Assembly (NCBI GenBank): GCA_949300485.1
Contig: CASGEL010000003.1
Coordinates: forward strand, 1-64,000
DNA: 64,000 bases
Direction: 5' to 3'
Source: an uncultured bacterium
GTDB lineage: Bacteria > Cyanobacteriota > Vampirovibrionia > Gastranaerophilales > Gastranaerophilaceae
Shown in pieces: positions 15,077 to 54,813 of the stretch (its first letter is position 1; every line of letters starts with the position of its first letter). The notes beneath the pieces were generated by a model that had not been told where the DNA came from, did not search any database, and saw only the letters and a program-made list of their open reading frames with translations. A program made the position numbers and the translations under genes.

Positions 15077-16207
15077 TTATACAGAAGTAATTTTACCCAT
15101 AACAACTCGTTTATTTGCTCCCGTACAACATGGAAGATTGTTTGGAATTCCATAATATGTACAGTAACCTAGAAGAGCAAAAGCCATTACTTCTTTAAAA
15201 TTATTGGAAATTCCATAGTTTTCACAAGTTGTTAAATCAATATGCTTTGGCAAATATCCTCTTAACATTCTCATCAAAGTTTTGTTATATGCACCACCAC
15301 CGCATATTACAGATTCATGAATTCCGACATTCGGATAAATAAAACGTTCATAACTTTGAGCAATTGTTTTAGCAGTTAGAGCAGTAACAGTTGCAATAAT
15401 ATCTTTAGGATCATCAGGTGCAAATTTTAAAATATTTTCTATATAGTTATTAGAAAAATATTCTCTGCCTGTCGATTTTGGAGGTTCCACTAAATAATAC
15501 TCATCAGACAACAAGCATTCAAGCCAACTATCAGAAACAACACCCGATGAAGCAATCTCACCATCTTTATCATAGGGAACGGAAAAATATTTATTTGCAC
15601 AATAATCAATCATAATATTTCCAAGCCCCGTATCAAATCCAAATGTATCAAAATCCTGAGATACAACAGTTACATTTGAAATTCCTCCAATATTCTGGAT
15701 TGCAAAATTCTTACCTTTATTTTTAAACCAAGCTTCATCTGCAAAACAAACCAATGGTGCACCTTGTCCATTTTGCGCAATATCGGCCTCTCTGAAATTT
15801 GATATTGTCATACATCCGGTATTTTGAGAAATTACAGAACTTTCTCCAATTTGCAAAGTGCTTTTTAAACTTATATTATCAATACTTTCATCAAACGGAT
15901 AATGATAAATTGTCTGACCATGACTTGATATAAAATCAGGTTTCCCGAATTCGGAAATTAAAACATTTGCCGCATCTGCAAAACATTTACCTATAACAAA
16001 ATTCATCTGACAAATATCTTTTACGGAAGCTTCACCTCTAAATAACTGAAAAATTTTTGCCTTGACATGTTCAGGATATTGATAATTTATACCCTGAATT
16101 AATTTAACACTCCTATCAGGGAAAACTTCACAAAATCCGGCATCAATACTGTCACATGAGGTTCCTGACATCAATGCTATAACTTTTTTTGACTCTAACT
16201 CTTCCAT
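15077..16207 (-). CDS. anmK: Anhydro-N-acetylmuramic acid kinase
   Basis: AnmK opens and phosphorylates 1,6-anhydro-MurNAc from wall turnover, giving MurNAc-6-phosphate. The 376-residue protein has the ATPase-fold start VIALMSGTSCDSIDAGFCEV, SSHGQTIYH, LQIGESSVIS, FREADIAQNGQGAPLV and IQNIGGISNVTVV, all typical. Two LysM wall hydrolases are encoded elsewhere in the window, which fits recycling. No good ribosome binding site precedes the ATG. Instead an intrinsic terminator lies only about 14 bases upstream, an attenuator-like arrangement described separately. The 145-bp gap behind it towards the GH57 gene shows only a weak AAAAATCC/GGATTTTT stem. Confidence 0.93.
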   Translation of the reverse strand: MEELESKKVIALMSGTSCDSIDAGFCEVFPDRSVKLIQGINYQYPEHVKAKIFQLFRGEASVKDICQMNFVIGKCFADAANVLISEFGKPDFISSHGQTIYHYPFDESIDNISLKSTLQIGESSVISQNTGCMTISNFREADIAQNGQGAPLVCFADEAWFKNKGKNFAIQNIGGISNVTVVSQDFDTFGFDTGLGNIMIDYCANKYFSVPYDKDGEIASSGVVSDSWLECLLSDEYYLVEPPKSTGREYFSNNYIENILKFAPDDPKDIIATVTALTAKTIAQSYERFIYPNVGIHESVICGGGAYNKTLMRMLRGYLPKHIDLTTCENYGISNNFKEVMAFALLGYCTYYGIPNNLPCCTGANKRVVMGKITSV

Positions 16208-16220
16208 ATATTAATAATAT

Positions 16221-16251
16221 AAAAAAGCCTGTACTTATTCAAGTACAAGCT
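16221..16251 (-). terminator. Intrinsic terminator directly upstream of anmK
   Basis: On the minus strand AGCTTGTACTT and AAGTACAGGCT pair around a GAAT-type loop (one mismatch) and run into TTTTTT. The anmK ATG lies about 14 bases beyond the T run. Confidence 0.75.
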
Positions 16252-16560
16252 AAGTTAAAAGTTTACAACTATCCTTTACTAACTCTCTTCTAAAAGTCTT
16301 TTACTTTTCTCCCAAAAATAAACTAGATATACATAACTTTCAGATGTAAACTATAAAAATATCCCTAATCCACAGTTAATAATACTGTACCTCAATAATC
16401 TCTTTTCCCTTTTGGACTTCTTCGCCATCACCTCTATTTCTTTCGTCCAACTTATTTATTTTTCCGATTATCTTTTTTGATAATCAACCCTTCCACATTT
16501 CTGGTAGCCGGTGATTTTTAATTCGGCTTTCTTTTATGTTATTTAATTTATCCCTAAATT
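16221..16560 (-). ncRNA. Candidate structured leader or small RNA ahead of anmK
   Basis: The 597-bp gap 16208-16804 has no credible gene. Read on the minus strand, about 340 nt are purine-rich and can form local helices: AGCCG/CGGCT (around 16535-16505), GATTATC/GATAATC with loop AAAAAA (around 16484-16465), TTGGAC/GTCCAA enclosing GAGGTGATGGCGAAGAA, and ACAGT/ACTGT. TTAGGGATA occurs near both ends. It closes with the terminator at 16221-16251 immediately before anmK. I could not match it to a known riboswitch, 6S RNA, SRP RNA or tmRNA. Confidence 0.4.
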
Positions 16561-16606
16561 CAGATGATTACAAGTAAAAAAATATTATTATTTTTTTACA
16601 TTTGAC

Positions 16607-16736
16607 CATGCCCCTTGAAAGCGTAAGTAAAAATTCGTGTTATTAAATCTTAATGAAGAAAATTTAATGAAATCATGTAAAAATTTTATGTATTTTTATT
16701 TGACATTATAAAATTACAAAAATGTCATGGGGCATG
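16607..16736. repeat. Inverted repeats upstream of the WYL regulator pair
   Basis: CATGCCCC (16607-16614) and GGGGCATG (16729-16736) are exact inverted copies 114 bp apart. Inside, TGACATT (16701-16707) pairs with AATGTCA (16721-16727). GC-rich octamers stand out in this AT-rich gap and may be an operator for the regulators encoded at 16805. Confidence 0.45.
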
Positions 16737-16804: not shown

Positions 16805-17746
16805 ATGAAAGAATTTCTAAAAACAAATACCGTTACATATAATCTTATGTCTTTTACCGGATTTAAATCTATCTTGCTATTCTCACTATTGACAACAGGA
16901 CCAAAGTCATATAATGAACTGCAAGAAAGTTTCAAAAACCATGAATACCTGCATGAAGAAATTTCAAAAGATACTTTAAGAATTTATTTAAATTCATTAA
17001 AAGAAATAGGATGCCAAATAGATAAAATCAGAGAAAATGGTGTAACAAAATATACAATAACCTCGCATCCTTTTGTTTTAAAAATCAATGATAAACAAGC
17101 CAAAAGTATTATAAAAATATATAAAGCAATTTCAAAGTCCATTGATGTTTCAGACCTTATGGCATTACAAAAATTCTTTGATAATATTTCCCAATACGTC
17201 GAAAATGAAAAGTTAAAAGAAAAACTACAAAATATCTCACCACTAAATAATATTGATCAGCAACTTGTTGAAGATCTTATGAATTTTACCCAGAATAATA
17301 CCGAAATTACAATACACTATAATTCAAAAGTATCCGGGAACAAAAATATTACTATCCTTGCAGATAAAATAGAAATAAATAACGGTAAATTATATTTATA
17401 CGGTTTTAATTCAGAGTATCAAAATTATTCAAGTTTTCTTGTATCAAAAATAAATAAAATTGTCAGCATAAATCTGAAAGATAAAACCCTAGAAATACCC
17501 AATATTACAGTAGGATATGAATATACAAAAGATTATAATGAAAAATTGGAACTTCTTGATTGCGAAAAAATTATCAAAGAAGATAAAAATAAGGCAATAA
17601 TAGAATTGACTTCAAAAAACAAATTTGAAATAATCCAAAGAATTATGTTCCAAGCAAACAAATGCAAAGTTTTATATCCTGACAACATTAGAAAAGAAGT
17701 TATAGCTAATCTGAAAAAGATGAAAGAAGGATATTTTGAAAGATAA
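16805..17746 (+). CDS. WYL-domain transcriptional regulator (first of a pair)
   Basis: A 313-residue protein. Residues ~10-95 form a winged helix (SYNELQESFKN, then ISKDTLRIYLNSLKEIGCQI as the recognition part). Residues ~155-245 look like a divergent WYL domain (ITIHYNSK, LADKIEINNGKLYLYGFN, SKINKIVSINL). The C-terminal ~60 residues resemble the WCX extension. AGAGAAG precedes the ATG. It overlaps the next gene by 11 bp; that gene encodes a second protein of the same layout. Assignment rests on fold-like patterns, not on a strong signature. Ligand and targets are unknown. Confidence 0.65.
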   Translation: MKEFLKTNTVTYNLMSFTGFKSILLFSLLTTGPKSYNELQESFKNHEYLHEEISKDTLRIYLNSLKEIGCQIDKIRENGVTKYTITSHPFVLKINDKQAKSIIKIYKAISKSIDVSDLMALQKFFDNISQYVENEKLKEKLQNISPLNNIDQQLVEDLMNFTQNNTEITIHYNSKVSGNKNITILADKIEINNGKLYLYGFNSEYQNYSSFLVSKINKIVSINLKDKTLEIPNITVGYEYTKDYNEKLELLDCEKIIKEDKNKAIIELTSKNKFEIIQRIMFQANKCKVLYPDNIRKEVIANLKKMKEGYFER

Positions 17747-18671
17747 TAAAAAATTAAATGAAGGCTGCCTAAAAATTTTTCAACTTCTTGAACTGCTATA
17801 TGAAGATAAAGCAGATTACAACCGCGTAATCGCCATTTTTAAAGATGAATTGGCAGATCAAACAACCAATAATATCCAAGTCATCCTAAATAAAAACATG
17901 AATGCTTTAAAAGTTTTTGGGATAAAAGTTGTTAAAATAAATAATAAATATAAATTACAAAGTAGCTTATATTCAATGCCTTTTACATTAAATGATCTAA
18001 AAGCTATAAGCATTTTGGCAAATTGTATTAAAGATTTTCCTGATGAAGAAATTGATAAAAATATTTTGAGTTTTATAAATAATATACAATTTAGAATGAG
18101 TAATAGCGATAGAAACATTCTAAATAATCTATCCCAAAACAGTAATTATGATTTTTCATTTTTTTATTCCAATATAAAAGAACAAGTTGAACAATGCAGA
18201 AAAATTTGCAAAGAAGGATTTATAATAAATGTTTATTATCTTAACAAGGGAAAAGAAACCTTCTGCAAATGCACTCCCCAAGACGTTTTATACGATACAA
18301 AAAATGCATATTTGAAAGTATATGATACAATATCCAGACAAAATATTGAAATTCCTATAAATAATATTTTGTCAATCGCAAAACTTCCACAAATAGCAAA
18401 AAAAGTAGAAATGACAACAACAGTTGTTTATAAATTAAAAAACCGACTTGCAAAAACCTACCATTTAAAAGAAGGGGAAACTTCAGAGGGCTTGAATGCT
18501 AACGGCGAATTAATTGTTATAAATAAAGGAGAACCGTTTGACAAACTAATACAAAGACTAATGAGATATACATTCAATTGTGAAATTCTTTCTCCTAAAA
18601 ATCTAAGAGAAGAAATGATAAAACTTATAAATGAAACACTGAGCCAATACGAAGAAAAAAATAATAAATAA
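17736..18671 (+). CDS. WYL-domain transcriptional regulator (second of a pair)
   Basis: A 311-residue paralogue of the preceding protein, probably translationally coupled because the frames overlap by 11 bp. It starts with TTG (ribosome binding site GAAGGA seven bases upstream). The order is the same: N-terminal helix-turn-helix (FQLLELLYEDKADYNRVIAI), a middle WYL-like domain (FIINVYYLNKGKETF, CTPQDVLYDTKNAYLKVYD, INNILSIAKL), and a WCX-like end (PFDKLIQRLMRYTFNCEILS). Tandem WYL regulators often act as heterodimers. Its C-terminal end stops 2 bp from the convergent der gene. Confidence 0.65.
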   Translation: MKDNKKLNEGCLKIFQLLELLYEDKADYNRVIAIFKDELADQTTNNIQVILNKNMNALKVFGIKVVKINNKYKLQSSLYSMPFTLNDLKAISILANCIKDFPDEEIDKNILSFINNIQFRMSNSDRNILNNLSQNSNYDFSFFYSNIKEQVEQCRKICKEGFIINVYYLNKGKETFCKCTPQDVLYDTKNAYLKVYDTISRQNIEIPINNILSIAKLPQIAKKVEMTTTVVYKLKNRLAKTYHLKEGETSEGLNANGELIVINKGEPFDKLIQRLMRYTFNCEILSPKNLREEMIKLINETLSQYEEKNNK

Positions 18672-18673
18672 AA

Positions 18674-20002
18674 TTATTTTTTATCTTGACGTTCTCTAAC
18701 AGAAATTCTAATAGGAGTTCCAAAAAAGCCAAAAGCTTCTCTTAATTTATTTTCCAAATATCTCTTGTAACTATCCTTTAATAATTCTTCGTTATTTACA
18801 AAAAGAACAAATGTAGGCGGTTGTGTTTTAGCCTGAGTGACATAATATATTTTTAATCTTTTCCCTTTAAAACTAGTAGGAGGATTCAAGGCATACGCCT
18901 CAGATATAACCTTATTTAACAGTCCGGTTGAAACACGTTTTATACACTGTTCATAGACTTCTATACTCTTATCAAAAATTTGTCCTAAACGTTGTTTTGT
19001 CACAGCACTTATAAAAATCTTCGGAGCAAAACTCAAAAAAGGAATATCAGAAGATAACTCTTTTTCAAATTTATTTATTGTCGTTGAATTCTTCCCTTCT
19101 ATCAAATCCCATTTATTAACTGCTACAATTAACCCTTTACCAGCTTCGGTAACAATAGACGAAATTCTCTTATCCTGATCAGAGATTCCCTCTTTTGCAT
19201 CAATAACCAATACTGCAATATCACAATCTCTTATTGAGCGAATAGCCCTATCTACAGCAAACTTTTCGACTCCATAATCGACTTTTGATTTTTTTCTTAT
19301 TCCTGCAGTATCAACAATTATAAATTCTTTATCATTATATGTAATATAGCTGTCAATACTGTCACGAGTAGTTCCTGAAACATCCGAAACAATCACTCTT
19401 TGAGTATTCAATAGGGCGTTGACAATTGAAGATTTACCTGCATTTGGACGTCCGACAATTGCAATTCTTATATGATTATCTTTTTCCTCTTCGTCAGTAA
19501 TTTCAAAATCTTTTGTCACTATATCCAACAGATCACCAACTCCACCTGACCCATGAAGTGCAGAAATGCCTATTGGATCTCCAAGAGCCAAAGCATAAAA
19601 ATCGCTTGTCATCATTAAAGATTCTTTATTATCACATTTATTAACAGCAACAAAAATCGGCTTGCCTGATTGACGAAGAATATTGGCAATGTCATAATCA
19701 ACAGGATTTATACCCTCTTGTCCGTCAACAAGAAATATGATTTTATCGGCTTCCTCACAAGCTAATTTTGCCTGATCAAAAATAGAAACCATAATATCAT
19801 CCTCATCGCCAGGAATAATCCCACCGGTATCAATTATTGTAAAACCTTTATTTTGCCATTCTACATCAAAATAAATTCTGTCTCTTGTTACTCCTGGTAA
19901 ATCATCAACTATAGAATGTCTTGCACCCATAAGACGATTTACAAATGTAGACTTTCCTACATTTGGTCTTCCAACTATTGCGACTATTGGTTTTCTTTTC
20001 AT
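18674..20002 (-). CDS. der: Ribosome-assembly GTPase Der (EngA)
   Basis: Der is the only bacterial GTPase with two G domains and is needed for 50S maturation. In this 442-residue protein G domain 1 has GRPNVGKST (11-19), DTGGI and NKCD, and G domain 2 has GRPNAGKSS, DTAGIRKK and NKWD. The C-terminal KH-like domain (ALNPPTSFKGKRLKIYYVTQ, then PPTFVLFVNN) is complete. Length is normal for the family. The ribosome binding site is weak. It is the first of a run of minus-strand genes with TPR proteins upstream. Confidence 0.97.
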   Translation of the reverse strand: MKRKPIVAIVGRPNVGKSTFVNRLMGARHSIVDDLPGVTRDRIYFDVEWQNKGFTIIDTGGIIPGDEDDIMVSIFDQAKLACEEADKIIFLVDGQEGINPVDYDIANILRQSGKPIFVAVNKCDNKESLMMTSDFYALALGDPIGISALHGSGGVGDLLDIVTKDFEITDEEEKDNHIRIAIVGRPNAGKSSIVNALLNTQRVIVSDVSGTTRDSIDSYITYNDKEFIIVDTAGIRKKSKVDYGVEKFAVDRAIRSIRDCDIAVLVIDAKEGISDQDKRISSIVTEAGKGLIVAVNKWDLIEGKNSTTINKFEKELSSDIPFLSFAPKIFISAVTKQRLGQIFDKSIEVYEQCIKRVSTGLLNKVISEAYALNPPTSFKGKRLKIYYVTQAKTQPPTFVLFVNNEELLKDSYKRYLENKLREAFGFFGTPIRISVRERQDKK

Positions 20003-29574: not shown

Positions 29575-30195
29575 TTATCTAAAATTATCCATAAATTTAT
29601 TTTTTGTTTCCATAATATTCTCAACAGCATTATCAACCTGAATTAGACTTTCTGTAGCATCAGCAGGTGTAATAACATTTTTAGGAACCTTACCTTCAGA
29701 TGTAAATTCAAACTGCCCTGCAGCATGACCTAGTGTTGTAACTATAGAATCCAACTCCTTAAAAATGCTATCAAATAAACCCATCACCTTACTTAACCTA
29801 GTAGGCTCTTTAGGAATAATTATTCTATCTGTTTTATTATTTTTATCAGGAGAATATATCTCTAAAGCTTTGGAACCGCCAAGACCAGAAGCCTCAACAG
29901 TAGCAATAGAACCTGCAGGAAGAGATAAATCTTTCTGAGTTACAACAAATTTAATATACACCTCGGTTGAAATAATCTGAATCTTCTTTACATAACCTAT
30001 CTGAACTCCTAAAAATTTCACAGGAGAACCAACAATAAGTCCATCTACATCTTCCATAAAAATTTGATAATTTTTATACTGTTTTTGATTTTGATAATTA
30101 TAATACCTAAAACCTAATACTATAAATGCCACTATAAAGAGCCATATTATAAATTCAATCCACGCATATACCCTTATATTACCAAAAATTTTCAT
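29575..30195 (-). CDS. MlaD/MCE-domain protein
   Basis: A 206-residue single-span inner-membrane protein. A transmembrane helix at ~10-30 (IEFIIWLFIVAFIVLGF) is followed by an MCE domain at ~38-115 (FMEDVDGLIVGSPVKFLGVQ, IGYVKKIQI, LPAGSIATVEASGLGGSKAL). The C-terminal ~70 residues are helical. MCE proteins are substrate-binding parts of lipid transport systems between the two membranes. Their permease and ATPase partners (MlaE/MlaF) are not in this window. Presence fits a diderm envelope. Confidence 0.85.
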   Translation of the reverse strand: MKIFGNIRVYAWIEFIIWLFIVAFIVLGFRYYNYQNQKQYKNYQIFMEDVDGLIVGSPVKFLGVQIGYVKKIQIISTEVYIKFVVTQKDLSLPAGSIATVEASGLGGSKALEIYSPDKNNKTDRIIIPKEPTRLSKVMGLFDSIFKELDSIVTTLGHAAGQFEFTSEGKVPKNVITPADATESLIQVDNAVENIMETKNKFMDNFR

Positions 30196-34130: not shown

Positions 34131-34799
34131 ATGAAAAGATTCAATAATGCGTTTACGCTGACAGAATTATTGGTTGCACTCGGAGTTATTGCAATTCTTT
34201 GTGCCATATTAATGCCGGTTATATTTAACCTAATACCAAATCAGAACACAATTATGGCTAAAAGGGCATTTTATACCACACAAACTATTATAAGTGAATT
34301 AATAAATGACGAGGCTTGTTATCCTGATAAAACATCTTCAGTAACAGATAGAAAAATTGGTTTTGATGATGGTGCAGGAACAGCAAATTGTCTAAAATGG
34401 GATGAAGCATATATAAACGGAGGCGATCAAAACAAAAAATTCAGAACTCTTTTCTTAGATAAATTAGGAATGGATCATGTAGCAAGCAATACTGTATTTT
34501 CTACTAGTGATGGTATAGATTGGGTGTTCACAAGTACAAATTTTTCAACAACAGCAACTGATGGAGGATTTACATACCTTACTGTTGATGTAAATGGAAA
34601 AGACGACCCAAATTGCAGTAACGGACATTCATATTCCGGAGAACTCCAAACCGGAAGCGATGGAAATTGTACCTCTCGCAAATCAGGGTTTGACAGATTC
34701 CGTATGAAAATATATGGAAGCGGCAAAATTGAAATTGATAGCGGAGACAAATGGGCAATTGAAGCTGTAAAAGTCAGCAAGAGCCTAACAGAAGATTAA
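34131..34799 (+). CDS. Prepilin-like protein (type IV pilin/T2SS pseudopilin)
   Basis: A 222-residue protein with a class III signal: MKRFNNAFTLTELLVALGVI, with prepilin-peptidase cleavage expected between Ala7 and Phe8 and the conserved Glu at +5. The hydrophobic helix (8-33) would anchor it before assembly. The rest is a beta-rich pilin head with several cysteines (CYPD, NCLKW, NCSNG, NCTSR) and ends EDSG-type motifs. No assembly genes are nearby; the pilus machine is encoded elsewhere. The stop codon overlaps the first bases of rnpB. Confidence 0.85.
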   Translation: MKRFNNAFTLTELLVALGVIAILCAILMPVIFNLIPNQNTIMAKRAFYTTQTIISELINDEACYPDKTSSVTDRKIGFDDGAGTANCLKWDEAYINGGDQNKKFRTLFLDKLGMDHVASNTVFSTSDGIDWVFTSTNFSTTATDGGFTYLTVDVNGKDDPNCSNGHSYSGELQTGSDGNCTSRKSGFDRFRMKIYGSGKIEIDSGDKWAIEAVKVSKSLTED

Positions 34800-35139
34800 A
34801 GCAGCTGGATAATCGCGCTTGATATATTTCAAGTGAGGAAAGTCCGTACATCCAAGAACAGGCCGCCGGAGAAACTCCGGGCGATGTGAGTCGGCGGATA
34901 GTGCCACAGAAATGAAGACTGCCAATGGGCTTGTAGCCACAGGCGATGGTGCAACGGTGAGTTAAGAGCTTCACCAGTGATACCGGAAGGTATCAGCTAG
35001 GTAAACCCCGGTCGGATGCAAGATTGAATTGAAGGTTAAGGTTGTTCGCCATCTTCAGAAAAATCGCTAGAGATTAGGAGTAATCCTAATACCAGACAGA
35101 TGATTATCTATAAACAGAACACGGCTTATGGGTTGCTTT
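34798..35139 (+). ncRNA. rnpB: RNase P RNA, bacterial class A
   Basis: The catalytic RNA of RNase P (tRNA 5' maturation), about 342 nt. P1 pairs AAAGCAGC (34798-34805) with GTTGCTTT (35132-35139). Conserved cores are present: GAGGAAAGTCC near the 5' end, GTGCCACAGAAA, and near the 3' end CAGACAGATGATTAT with ACAGAACACGGCTTATGG. A terminator follows. The 5' end overlaps the prepilin stop codon, so the RNA is either processed from that mRNA or has a promoter inside the gene. Confidence 0.95.
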
Positions 35140-35148
35140 ATTATATAA

Positions 35149-46388: not shown

Positions 46389-46670
46389 TTATCCTTGTTT
46401 AAAAGTTACACCTTTTGTCCCTTTTGGGTATTGCCAGTCAATAGCTTTTCTCTCGCAGGCAATTCTACAGGCCCCGCATTCAAGACAGTTTTCATAATTC
46501 ACAATAATTTCCTGCTTTTCCTCATTCCATTCATAAACTTTTGCAGGACATATATATGTACAATTTCTGCTTTTACATAATCTGCATTGTTCTTTATCCG
46601 GATTCAGATGAGATTCCGTATCAGGTGAGTATTTTAAAGTATATAATTTTTTATCAATGTCTATATTCAT
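46389..46670 (-). CDS. fixX: Ferredoxin-like protein FixX
   Basis: 93 residues with two CxxC clusters of a 4Fe-4S/3Fe-4S ferredoxin: CRLCKSRNCTYICP and CLECGACRIACE. FixX accompanies FixC (flavoprotein:quinone oxidoreductase) and passes electrons. I set the start at 46670 because its ATGA overlaps the fixC stop and GGAG lies nine bases upstream. The longer frame starting with GTG at 46685 lacks a site. FixA/FixB (the electron-bifurcating ETF) are not in the window. Confidence 0.9.
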   Translation of the reverse strand: MNIDIDKKLYTLKYSPDTESHLNPDKEQCRLCKSRNCTYICPAKVYEWNEEKQEIIVNYENCLECGACRIACERKAIDWQYPKGTKGVTFKQG

Positions 46671-47965
46671 ATCAAAATACTCCACAATAATCTGATAACA
46701 GCCCAGGCATCTTTAAAAAGTTCCAAAATTTTTCTGTCAGTAAAAATACTTTTTATAAACTTCCAATATTTTTCTTTCTTAGGGATTCCATCTGAAGATG
46801 TAAACATCTCAAAAAATGCATTAATCTTTGTCAAATAATATGACAAAAACGCTTTCTTTCTAAGATGCATAACATCAAAAAGATTTCTGTAAGTTTTCAT
46901 ATCTTTTAGAACAAAAGAATTTTGCAGTTTTTTCTCATATTTTGATAATGTTTTTCTTGAATAATCTTCTTTTTCCAATGCAATAATTGCGGTTTCCCCT
47001 GCAAGCTTGCCGCTAATCATAGCAAGATTAGTACCTTCCCAGTGAAGATTATTAACAAGCATAGCCGCATCGCCGACTACCATAACGCCATCATCACAAA
47101 GCTTTGGAATTTTTTTATACCCGCCTTCAGGAATTAAGTGTGCAGAATATTCTTGTAATGTTGCCCCCTCAATCAACGGTGCAATTGAAGGGTGCTGCTT
47201 CAACTGTTCAAGCAGTTCAAAAGGTCTGTAGTTATTTTCGGCAAGCTCATTTAACGTAACTCCGAGTCCTATTGTCACAGACTCTTTATTTGTATACATA
47301 AACCCTAAACCTAGCATACCGAGCATCGGGCCGCCAAAAATCTCAACAATAGAACCTTCATCATCTTTAATTCTAAATCTCTGATTGATTAGATCTTTAT
47401 CAATTTTTAAAACTTCTTTTACACTCAAGGCAACATCTTTTGTTTCAATCTCGCTTCTTAAACCAATTTGCTTGGCTAATAGAGAGTTTACTCCATCTGC
47501 CAAAATAACAATATCTGCGTAAAACTCTTCAAGTTCCGTACGAACCCCGACAACTTTACCCTTTTCTTTTATTAAATCTCTTACTACAGTTTCTTCAACA
47601 AGATAAACTCCGGCCTTCTTAGCCTCTTCCGCAGCCCATCTGTCAAATTTTCCGCGAATAACCGAATAACTTGAGTTATCATCCTTGCGATAAGAAATAT
47701 TCGTTGAATCCTCAGCACCCAAAATTAAGTAATTATGTTCAATATTGCGTCTTTCAACAGGTGCCTCCGTTTCAAAATTCGGGAATATTTCTTTTGTCGC
47801 CTGAGTATATATAGCTCCGCCAAAAACATTCTTGCTGCCAGCAAACAAACCTCGTTCAATAAGCACAACCTCTCTGCCAGCTCTTGCAAGAGTAATCGCA
47901 CAAGCCACACCACCCGGACCAGCACCAACAACTATAACTTCTGTTTTATTTTCTTTTTTTAACAT
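46667..47965 (-). CDS. fixC: FAD-dependent oxidoreductase FixC (ETF:quinone oxidoreductase type)
   Basis: A 432-residue flavoprotein of the ETF-QO/geranylgeranyl reductase superfamily. The FAD motif VIVVGAGPGGVACAITLARA is near the N-terminus, VVGDAAMLVNNLHWEGTN is the second FAD motif, and the family segment GLGVTLNELAENNYRPF is present. It receives electrons from an electron-transferring flavoprotein and gives them to quinone or ferredoxin. The start at 47965 (GAGAAG upstream) is preferred to a codon six residues earlier. It overlaps fixX by 4 bp. Without FixAB nearby the electron donor is unknown. Confidence 0.88.
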   Translation of the reverse strand: MLKKENKTEVIVVGAGPGGVACAITLARAGREVVLIERGLFAGSKNVFGGAIYTQATKEIFPNFETEAPVERRNIEHNYLILGAEDSTNISYRKDDNSSYSVIRGKFDRWAAEEAKKAGVYLVEETVVRDLIKEKGKVVGVRTELEEFYADIVILADGVNSLLAKQIGLRSEIETKDVALSVKEVLKIDKDLINQRFRIKDDEGSIVEIFGGPMLGMLGLGFMYTNKESVTIGLGVTLNELAENNYRPFELLEQLKQHPSIAPLIEGATLQEYSAHLIPEGGYKKIPKLCDDGVMVVGDAAMLVNNLHWEGTNLAMISGKLAGETAIIALEKEDYSRKTLSKYEKKLQNSFVLKDMKTYRNLFDVMHLRKKAFLSYYLTKINAFFEMFTSSDGIPKKEKYWKFIKSIFTDRKILELFKDAWAVIRLLWSILI

Positions 47966-48171
47966 AAAACTTCTCTTTACCATTGATTATACACTAAAAC
48001 CAAAGACTTGTAAAATAGTTAGAATAGCTAAATCACCCAGATTTTTATATATAAATTATTTAACCCATAATTATAATAAATAAGAAATGTTAAATTACGT
48101 AAAATTTTAGCAAAATTTACTTGCCTTTTGTTTTAGTATGAATGAAAATACTTAAAAATGGGATGTGTGAA

Positions 48172-53466: not shown

Positions 53467-54813
53467 CTAAATATCAACACCCTGCATCATATCAACAAGC
53501 TGTTTTATTGTCCCTTCCATAGTAACACTTTCAGAAGTTCTTTGCTGCAAGAAAGCATTAATCTTAGGCATCATTTCAATAGCAGTATCCAAGCGAGGGT
53601 TAGATCCCGGTTGATACATACCGACATCAATCAAATCCTTGTTTTCTCGATACAGAGAAAGCATAGTTCTTAATTTTGCCGCAGCCTGTTTATGTTCCGG
53701 ACTTGCAATCGCACTCATCAAACGTGAAATACTTCCCAAAACATCAATCGCAGGATAGTGATTTGATTCTGCAACCTTTCTTGATAAGAAAATGTGTCCG
53801 TCAACAATACCACGCACGATATCAACAATAGGGTCAGAAATATCATCACCTTCCATCAAAACCGTATATAATGCTGTAATGGAACCCTTTGGACTGTTAC
53901 CGGCACGTTCCAAAACCTTTTGCAGCCATGAAAATATTGAAGGAGGATAACCTTTCATTGTCGGAGGTTCCCCTAATGACAAACCGACTTCTCTTCCAGC
54001 CATAGCACAACGAGTAACAGTATCTGTCATTAAGAAAACTTTTTTACCCTGATCTCTAAAGTATTCACAAACCGCAGTTGCTGTTAATAAAGCTTTTTGC
54101 CTAATCAATGGAGGCTGGTCACCTGTTGAACATACCAAAACGGATTTAACCATACCTTCTTCGCCCAAAGAATCTTCTATAAATTCCTTAACTTCACGTC
54201 CACGTTCTCCAATCAGAGCAACAACGTTAACATCAGCATCGGAATTTCTTGCAATCATACCTAAAAGTGTACTTTTACCGACACCTGAACCGGCAAACAA
54301 CCCCAAGCGCTGACCGCAACCCATTGTCATACAACCGTCAATAGCTCTGACGCCTGTTGAAAATTGTTCCGTAATAATAGGTCTTTCAAACGGTCCGGGC
54401 GGCGGCCCCTCTATAGGACGCCATAATGCTCCTGTTGTATCAAGAGGTTTACCGTCAAGCGGATTACCTAAAGGATCAATAAGTCTGCCCAACAAAAAAT
54501 CTCCGACAGGAACAGTAATAGGACGTCCCGTTGAAGTTACCAAACTTCCCTGTCCTATGCCGCTGCCGTCTAATAATAAAGACAACTGTGCTACTTCTCC
54601 TTTAAAAGCCTGAACCTCTGCAGGTTTTTGCTTGCCGTCGTACGTTTCAATATAACAAAGATCGCCGACCTTTAATCCAGGCAATTTAACCTCAACAGTC
54701 AAACCCAATAATTTTGATACAGATCCCCTATATGTATATAACTCAGTTGTTGCGAGTTTTTCTTGGACTTTTTGTTTTATTTCTTCTAAACCACTTTTAT
54801 CTATATCTAACAT
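53467..54813 (-). CDS. FliI/YscN-family export ATPase
   Basis: A 448-residue ATPase of flagellar/type III secretion systems, relative of F1 beta. The Walker A GLFAGSGVGKST (171-182) and ALIGERGREVKEFIEDSLG, LMTDTVTRCAMAGREVGLSL and YPPSIFSWLQKVLERAGN are diagnostic. It would power unfolding and export of substrates. No FliH, FliJ or export-gate genes flank it: neighbours are gyrB and adk. It may serve a dispersed flagellum or be a remnant. Start weakly supported; the protein is full length. Confidence 0.85.
   Translation of the reverse strand: MLDIDKSGLEEIKQKVQEKLATTELYTYRGSVSKLLGLTVEVKLPGLKVGDLCYIETYDGKQKPAEVQAFKGEVAQLSLLLDGSGIGQGSLVTSTGRPITVPVGDFLLGRLIDPLGNPLDGKPLDTTGALWRPIEGPPPGPFERPIITEQFSTGVRAIDGCMTMGCGQRLGLFAGSGVGKSTLLGMIARNSDADVNVVALIGERGREVKEFIEDSLGEEGMVKSVLVCSTGDQPPLIRQKALLTATAVCEYFRDQGKKVFLMTDTVTRCAMAGREVGLSLGEPPTMKGYPPSIFSWLQKVLERAGNSPKGSITALYTVLMEGDDISDPIVDIVRGIVDGHIFLSRKVAESNHYPAIDVLGSISRLMSAIASPEHKQAAAKLRTMLSLYRENKDLIDVGMYQPGSNPRLDTAIEMMPKINAFLQQRTSESVTMEGTIKQLVDMMQGVDI

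Follow-up and report, generated by a model that had tools for sequence, protein, structure and literature searches.

The minus strand of the window (the whole 64,000-nucleotide stretch analysed, from an uncultured member of the Gastranaerophilaceae) very probably carries, at 16538-16221, an independent, single-copy small RNA gene outside Rfam. We consider that this RNA is not a leader of the adjoining anmK gene and may act in trans, with anmK predicted to be promoted separately. Read at the sequence level, the RNA gene has a σ70-like promoter of its own, a rigidly placed upstream box and an intrinsic terminator. The features are collected in Table 1.

Table 1. Coordinates of the small RNA gene, its control elements and neighbouring features in the window
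Feature	Position	Strand	Remarks
anmK, anhydro-N-acetylmuramic acid kinase, downstream neighbour	15077..16207	-	Pfam PF03702
Predicted anmK promoter, TTGAAT-17-TATTAT, overlapping the terminator	16214..16242	-	-10 at 16219-16214, ending 6 nt before the ATG; leaderless type
Intrinsic terminator of the RNA	16221..16251	-	Stem-loop 16251-16226, then T6; 97.6% paired, 8/11 pairs double-changed
Box 3, GGAUAGUUGUAAAC	16261..16274	-	Invariant in the genus
Box 2, GAUUAGGGAUAU	16359..16370	-	Core TTAGGGAT in 71/117
Helix 4 (ACAGU/ACUGU)	16372..16388	-	66% paired; gaps in the alignment
Box 1, AGAGGUGAUGG, Shine-Dalgarno-like	16425..16435	-	Invariant in the genus
Helix 3 (UUGGAC/GUCCAA), closing the loop that displays box 1	16412..16450	-	Inner 5 pairs 85.9% paired; 2 with double changes
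Helix 2, sequence-variable hairpin (GAUUAUC/GAUAAUC)	16466..16485	-	Both sides changed in 5/7 pairs; local alignment imperfect
Helix 1 (AGCC/GGCU), 5'-proximal	16506..16528	-	97.5% of cells paired
Small RNA	16221..16538	-	~318 nt, with a 5' end predicted by way of the -10; conservation, compensatory helices, terminator
-10 TAAATT (TAnAnT in relatives)	16545..16550	-	Alignment of 30 loci
-35 TTGTAA	16568..16573	-	Conserved in the alignment; 17-nt spacer to the -10
Activator-like box, GGGGCATGGTCAAATGTAAA	16595..16614	-	20 nt ahead of the CTTGT of the -35 in all loci measured
Upstream promoter element, TTTCATTAAATTTTCTTCATTAAG(A)	16649..16672	-	Kept in the source genus and in several more; 30-locus alignment, upstream regions L071-L103
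wyl1, divergent upstream neighbour	16805..17746	+	Judged a WYL-type regulator from resemblance and context; Pfam gives no match
RNase P RNA, class A	34797..35144	+	231 bits (Rfam)

Searching the source genome, we found the locus in a single copy. The -10 hexamer places the predicted start of the RNA near 16538 and thus its length at about 318 nt. The first-pass annotation had taken the whole of 16221-16560 as a purine-rich, structured minus-strand stretch. Its description holds, with conservation as the main support; its extent holds for 16538-16221, while the first ~20 nt (16560-16539) are promoter and not RNA. Inspection shows that A and G abound and C is scarce in 16560-16221, and the RNA of locus L001 is composed of A 0.42, G 0.22, C 0.08 and T 0.28. 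Across copies, a terminator finder, which misplaced a few 3' ends, gave RNA lengths of about 115-415 nt with a median of 258. The folding energy of 16600-16221 corresponds to z = -4.29, with none of 100 shuffles equally low, a score that overstates the RNA's own structure because an AT palindrome in the promoter, upstream of the RNA, contributes to it.

The promoter is σ70-like, with TTGTAA-17-TAAATT in the window and TTGTAA-17-TAnAnT in relatives. Aligning 30 loci of the genus, we find positions T1, A2 and T6 of the -10 invariant and A4 nearly so, and the upstream region is conserved to the same degree as the RNA itself. In every locus measured, the box, in the form GGGGCATGGTCAAnTGTAAA, stands 20 nt ahead of CTTGT. 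An inverted arrangement, GTAAA...TTTAC (16571-16612, minus strand), is found between this box and the -35; its ends are kept, its middle varies, and it is a possible operator.

Within the RNA, the same alignment shows long invariant islands alternating with freely varying stretches. RNAalifold run by itself on the whole alignment recovers helix 1 and the terminator only; we assessed the remaining helices as named structures, with slid partners as the control. In this 30-sequence comparison, 84.0% of the cells of the named helices are paired, against 23.5-47.7% with slid partners, and the covariation score is 0.236 against 0.051-0.099. The figures for helices 2 and 4 are affected by the imperfect alignment there. 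The RNA ends in its own terminator, which is kept in relatives (30 genus loci). A scan of a 2.6-kb region gave three terminator-like sites where 0.9 were expected, and the site at 16251-16226 has 11 pairs.

For comparison across the family, we used 117 non-redundant copies that had been chosen for having the promoter box and the terminator, so that these two features are not independent evidence within the set. The box 1 core GTGATGG occurs in 110 of these RNAs (expected 1.0), the box 2 core TTAGGGAT in the fraction given in Table 1 (expected 2.4) and the box 3 core GATAGTTG in 49 of 117 (expected 0.4). Helix 3 was not seen in the genera with GGAGTGATGG and is not family-wide. A helix enclosing box 1 was rejected as a general feature; the search pattern of this test omitted the GAGGTGATGG form.

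Using the 340-base stretch as a BLAST query, we detected the RNA in 41 of the 46 genus genomes, among them all 34 good ones. To follow the range further, we used a pattern made of the box, the spacing and the -35, with the reversed pattern as the control. The pattern is present in 171 of 239 family genomes, which represent 31 of 41 genera, and a genome rarely has more than one match; the reversed control gave 0 matches, and 68 of the 239 genomes did not show it at the mismatch level used. It was found in 0 of 22 genomes from other families of the order, and across the class there was a single stray match outside the family. Among the matches listed, Gastranaerophilales/Melainabacteria MAGs make up the records that are named to that level. 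The list also holds MAGs that are not so named and a few other labels (e.g. Clostridiaceae, Heliobacteriaceae), which we take to be mislabelled records. An RNA model of the 3' part gave matches confined to close genera. Half of its weak matches (L045, L050, L051, L053 and L054) look like chance when judged by context and were rejected. The occurrence once per genome across most of this gut-bacterial family, together with the near-invariant promoter box, makes a core function likely.

We then examined the neighbourhood. Divergent from the RNA lies a pair of regulator-like genes (16805-18671, plus strand), the second with a sub-threshold WCX match; as a guess, it is a PafBC-like pairing. Such a pair adjoins 67 of the 117 copies. 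The other usual neighbour, anmK, lies beside the RNA at 25 of 30 genus loci and downstream of it in 73 of the 117 copies. However, anmK is missing downstream of 36 of the 117, each with more than 900 nt of sequence to judge by, and both neighbours are missing at 25. Within the genus, the loci L025, L026, L028, L029 and L030 keep the RNA and its terminator and lack anmK, and L015 lacks the divergent WYL-type gene. In some genera (L056-L062) the downstream gene reads as a phosphopentomutase.

The terminator stands 14 nt ahead of the anmK ATG (16207), and this start has no Shine-Dalgarno (SD) sequence, both as first annotated. Checking the region before the start codon, we find a TAnnWT hexamer 6 or 7 nt ahead of the anmK ATG at 52 of 73 loci and an SD-like sequence at 2 of 73. 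Among the 59 loci with an anmK start no more than 30 nt away, 50 have the combination TTG-N3-17-TAnnWT (shuffling predicts 1.6); among the 36 loci without anmK, none has it (expected 1.1). The TTG of this -35 sits inside the terminator hairpin of the RNA. At L006, L012, L014 and L016 the distance between the terminator and anmK is enlarged, and the -10 remains with anmK. Since the -10 lies only 6-7 nt before the ATG, the anmK mRNA is predicted to be leaderless. Most simply, anmK would be a leaderless gene whose -35 region doubles as the terminator of the RNA; this co-occurrence strongly supports a putative promoter of its own and a leaderless mRNA. The first-pass annotation had held that a promoter found by RNA-seq between the terminator and the ATG would count against its reading; a predicted -10 does lie there, seen in the sequence and not by RNA-seq. 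Like other leaderless mRNAs, anmK would have its -10 just before the start codon and no SD; it differs in that the -35 would be supplied by the terminator hairpin of an upstream RNA. Four other minus-strand genes of the window (53467-54813, 46667-47983, 29575-30195 and 18674-20002) lack an SD and have TAnnnT, often TATAAT-like, at 5-7 nt from the ATG, which suggests that leaderless genes are not rare in the source organism.

The first-pass annotation had offered two readings of this arrangement: a metabolite- or RNA-sensing leader of anmK that works by transcription attenuation at the terminator, or an independent small RNA whose terminator anmK must read through. The short distance to an ATG without SD and the frequent adjacency of anmK would suit the leader, and riboswitches and other attenuation leaders are likewise structured RNAs with a terminator just before a gene. 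Here, in contrast, the downstream gene changes or is missing and has a predicted promoter of its own. The leader reading is contradicted by the persistence of the RNA in the 36 copies that lack anmK and have enough sequence to tell, and by the conserved promoter of the RNA itself; we also found no conserved antiterminator pairing and no Rfam class. We therefore regard attenuation as highly improbable, and the same two observations favour the independent small RNA. Read-through by anmK is not needed, given its own conserved -35/-10. It could still occur beside that promoter, if an abundant small RNA with a leaky terminator feeds anmK in addition. Read-through from small RNAs into downstream genes (actuatons) has been described in Synechocystis (PMC5386190), and anmK has the same orientation as the RNA, 14 nt away. 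In the described cases (PMC5386190), however, the downstream gene has no start site of its own, whereas here a -35/-10 pair is conserved, and the terminator is strongly preserved. We hold an actuaton-like arrangement to be unlikely.

The first-pass annotation could not match the RNA to a known class, and Rfam 15 agrees: no family reached the gathering cut-off at the window locus or in the RNA of 20 related loci. Were the RNA a diverged form of some known housekeeping RNA (6S, SRP, tmRNA or RNase P), its single copy, family-wide range, structure and strongly conserved promoter would be accounted for. The genome, however, carries a 6S candidate, the SRP RNA and the RNase P RNA elsewhere. The sole match to 6S RNA (RF00013) in the genome, L031 (G000:C6:19169-19345), lies away from the locus; it scores 42.6 bits against a cut-off of 46.4 and is probably the 6S RNA. 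SRP RNA (RF00169) matches above the cut-off at another site with 52.7 bits. In the case of SRP and RNase P the possibility is already contradicted, and ARAGORN finds no tmRNA (tRNA-like ends, tag frame) at the locus. 6S RNA is likewise a single-copy stand-alone RNA, but no 6S-like long helix is seen here. We consider a divergent housekeeping RNA extremely improbable.

A sponge for a GGA-binding CsrA-type protein, as CsrB or RsmZ is, comes to mind because the RNA is purine-rich, carries about eight GGA and resembles CsrB in size. CsrB, CsrC and RsmZ are also stand-alone, GGA-containing RNAs with a terminator at the end. They hold many copies of one motif, whereas this RNA has three different islands, and we noticed no recurring pattern of GGA hairpins. 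The occurrence of CsrA within the family is patchy, with 29 of 78 genomes positive; in the genus, where the RNA is universal, it was found in 0 of 31. The RNA is present in genera both with and without CsrA, and box 1 of the genus carries GAGG in place of GGA. A CsrA sponge is rejected for the source genus by the absence of CsrA from all 31 genomes, and we hold it very unlikely in general. Binding to the ribosome is also quite unlikely. Box 1 would then be an extended SD that holds the 30S subunit or starts a tiny ORF (AUG-Ala/Val-...-stop). Of 139 RNAs, 116 have their best anti-SD site in this box, nearly all copies hold an AUG within it, and ORFs of at most three codons occur in 32% of RNAs against 18% of shuffles. 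Against this, box 1 does not outdo dinucleotide shuffles in its pairing with the anti-SD (mean z -0.95; a median of 20% of shuffles as good), the SD-to-AUG spacing is ~2 nt, and ORF length runs from 2 to more than 30 codons without any peptide being conserved. In the source assembly, from which the rRNA operon is perhaps missing, the canonical 16S tail GGATCACCTCCTTT has no match. Protein coding from the box 1 AUG was rejected: the length of the ORFs does not exceed that in shuffles, and they have no peptide in common.

Within the phylum, the Yfr2 family and other cyanobacterial small RNAs offer a comparison, being likewise conserved, with their own promoter and terminator and sometimes gene-linked. 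Yfr2 RNAs are 65-80 nt long in Synechocystis, with copy numbers from one to nine, and conserved small RNAs of unknown function exist there (PMC5386190). The present RNA differs in its size (~115-415 nt), its single copy and a linked gene with its own promoter. In the literature searched, we found nothing on small RNAs of Gastranaerophilales, nor the sequence, range or terminator-promoter overlap of this RNA. The main text of a survey of candidate RNAs in human microbiomes (PMC8040213) does not mention the lineage; overlap with its tables is possible.

For the independent small RNA, we propose the following course. The RNA would be transcribed from its own σ70-like promoter with the activator-like box and would end at the intrinsic terminator, while anmK would be started separately, from a -35 within the terminator hairpin and a -10 that lies 6-7 nt before the ATG, giving a leaderless mRNA. 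None of the 16 genus genomes examined has Hfq, and the RNA would act in trans without it, through exposed purine-rich islands, of which the SD-like box 1 (RRGRGUGAUGGY) would matter most. This box, presented in a loop in the source genus, may pair with C/U-rich targets, either on mRNAs or on the ribosome. We advance Hfq-less action through box 1 tentatively, as a possibility that falls short of an even chance.

More speculatively, and with considerable doubt, the RNA might be a lineage-specific housekeeping-type RNA of Gastranaerophilales, which binds the ribosome or many mRNAs via one SD-like box, without Hfq and CsrA, under a dedicated once-per-genome promoter box, its terminator co-opted as the -35 of a leaderless gene. 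The predicted promoter, ends and conserved islands are testable features. A terminator that doubles as the -35 of a leaderless gene would be a compact arrangement, and elsewhere it could pass for an attenuator. In summary, this RNA is kept across most of the family, in cells without Hfq and, in the source genus, without CsrA.
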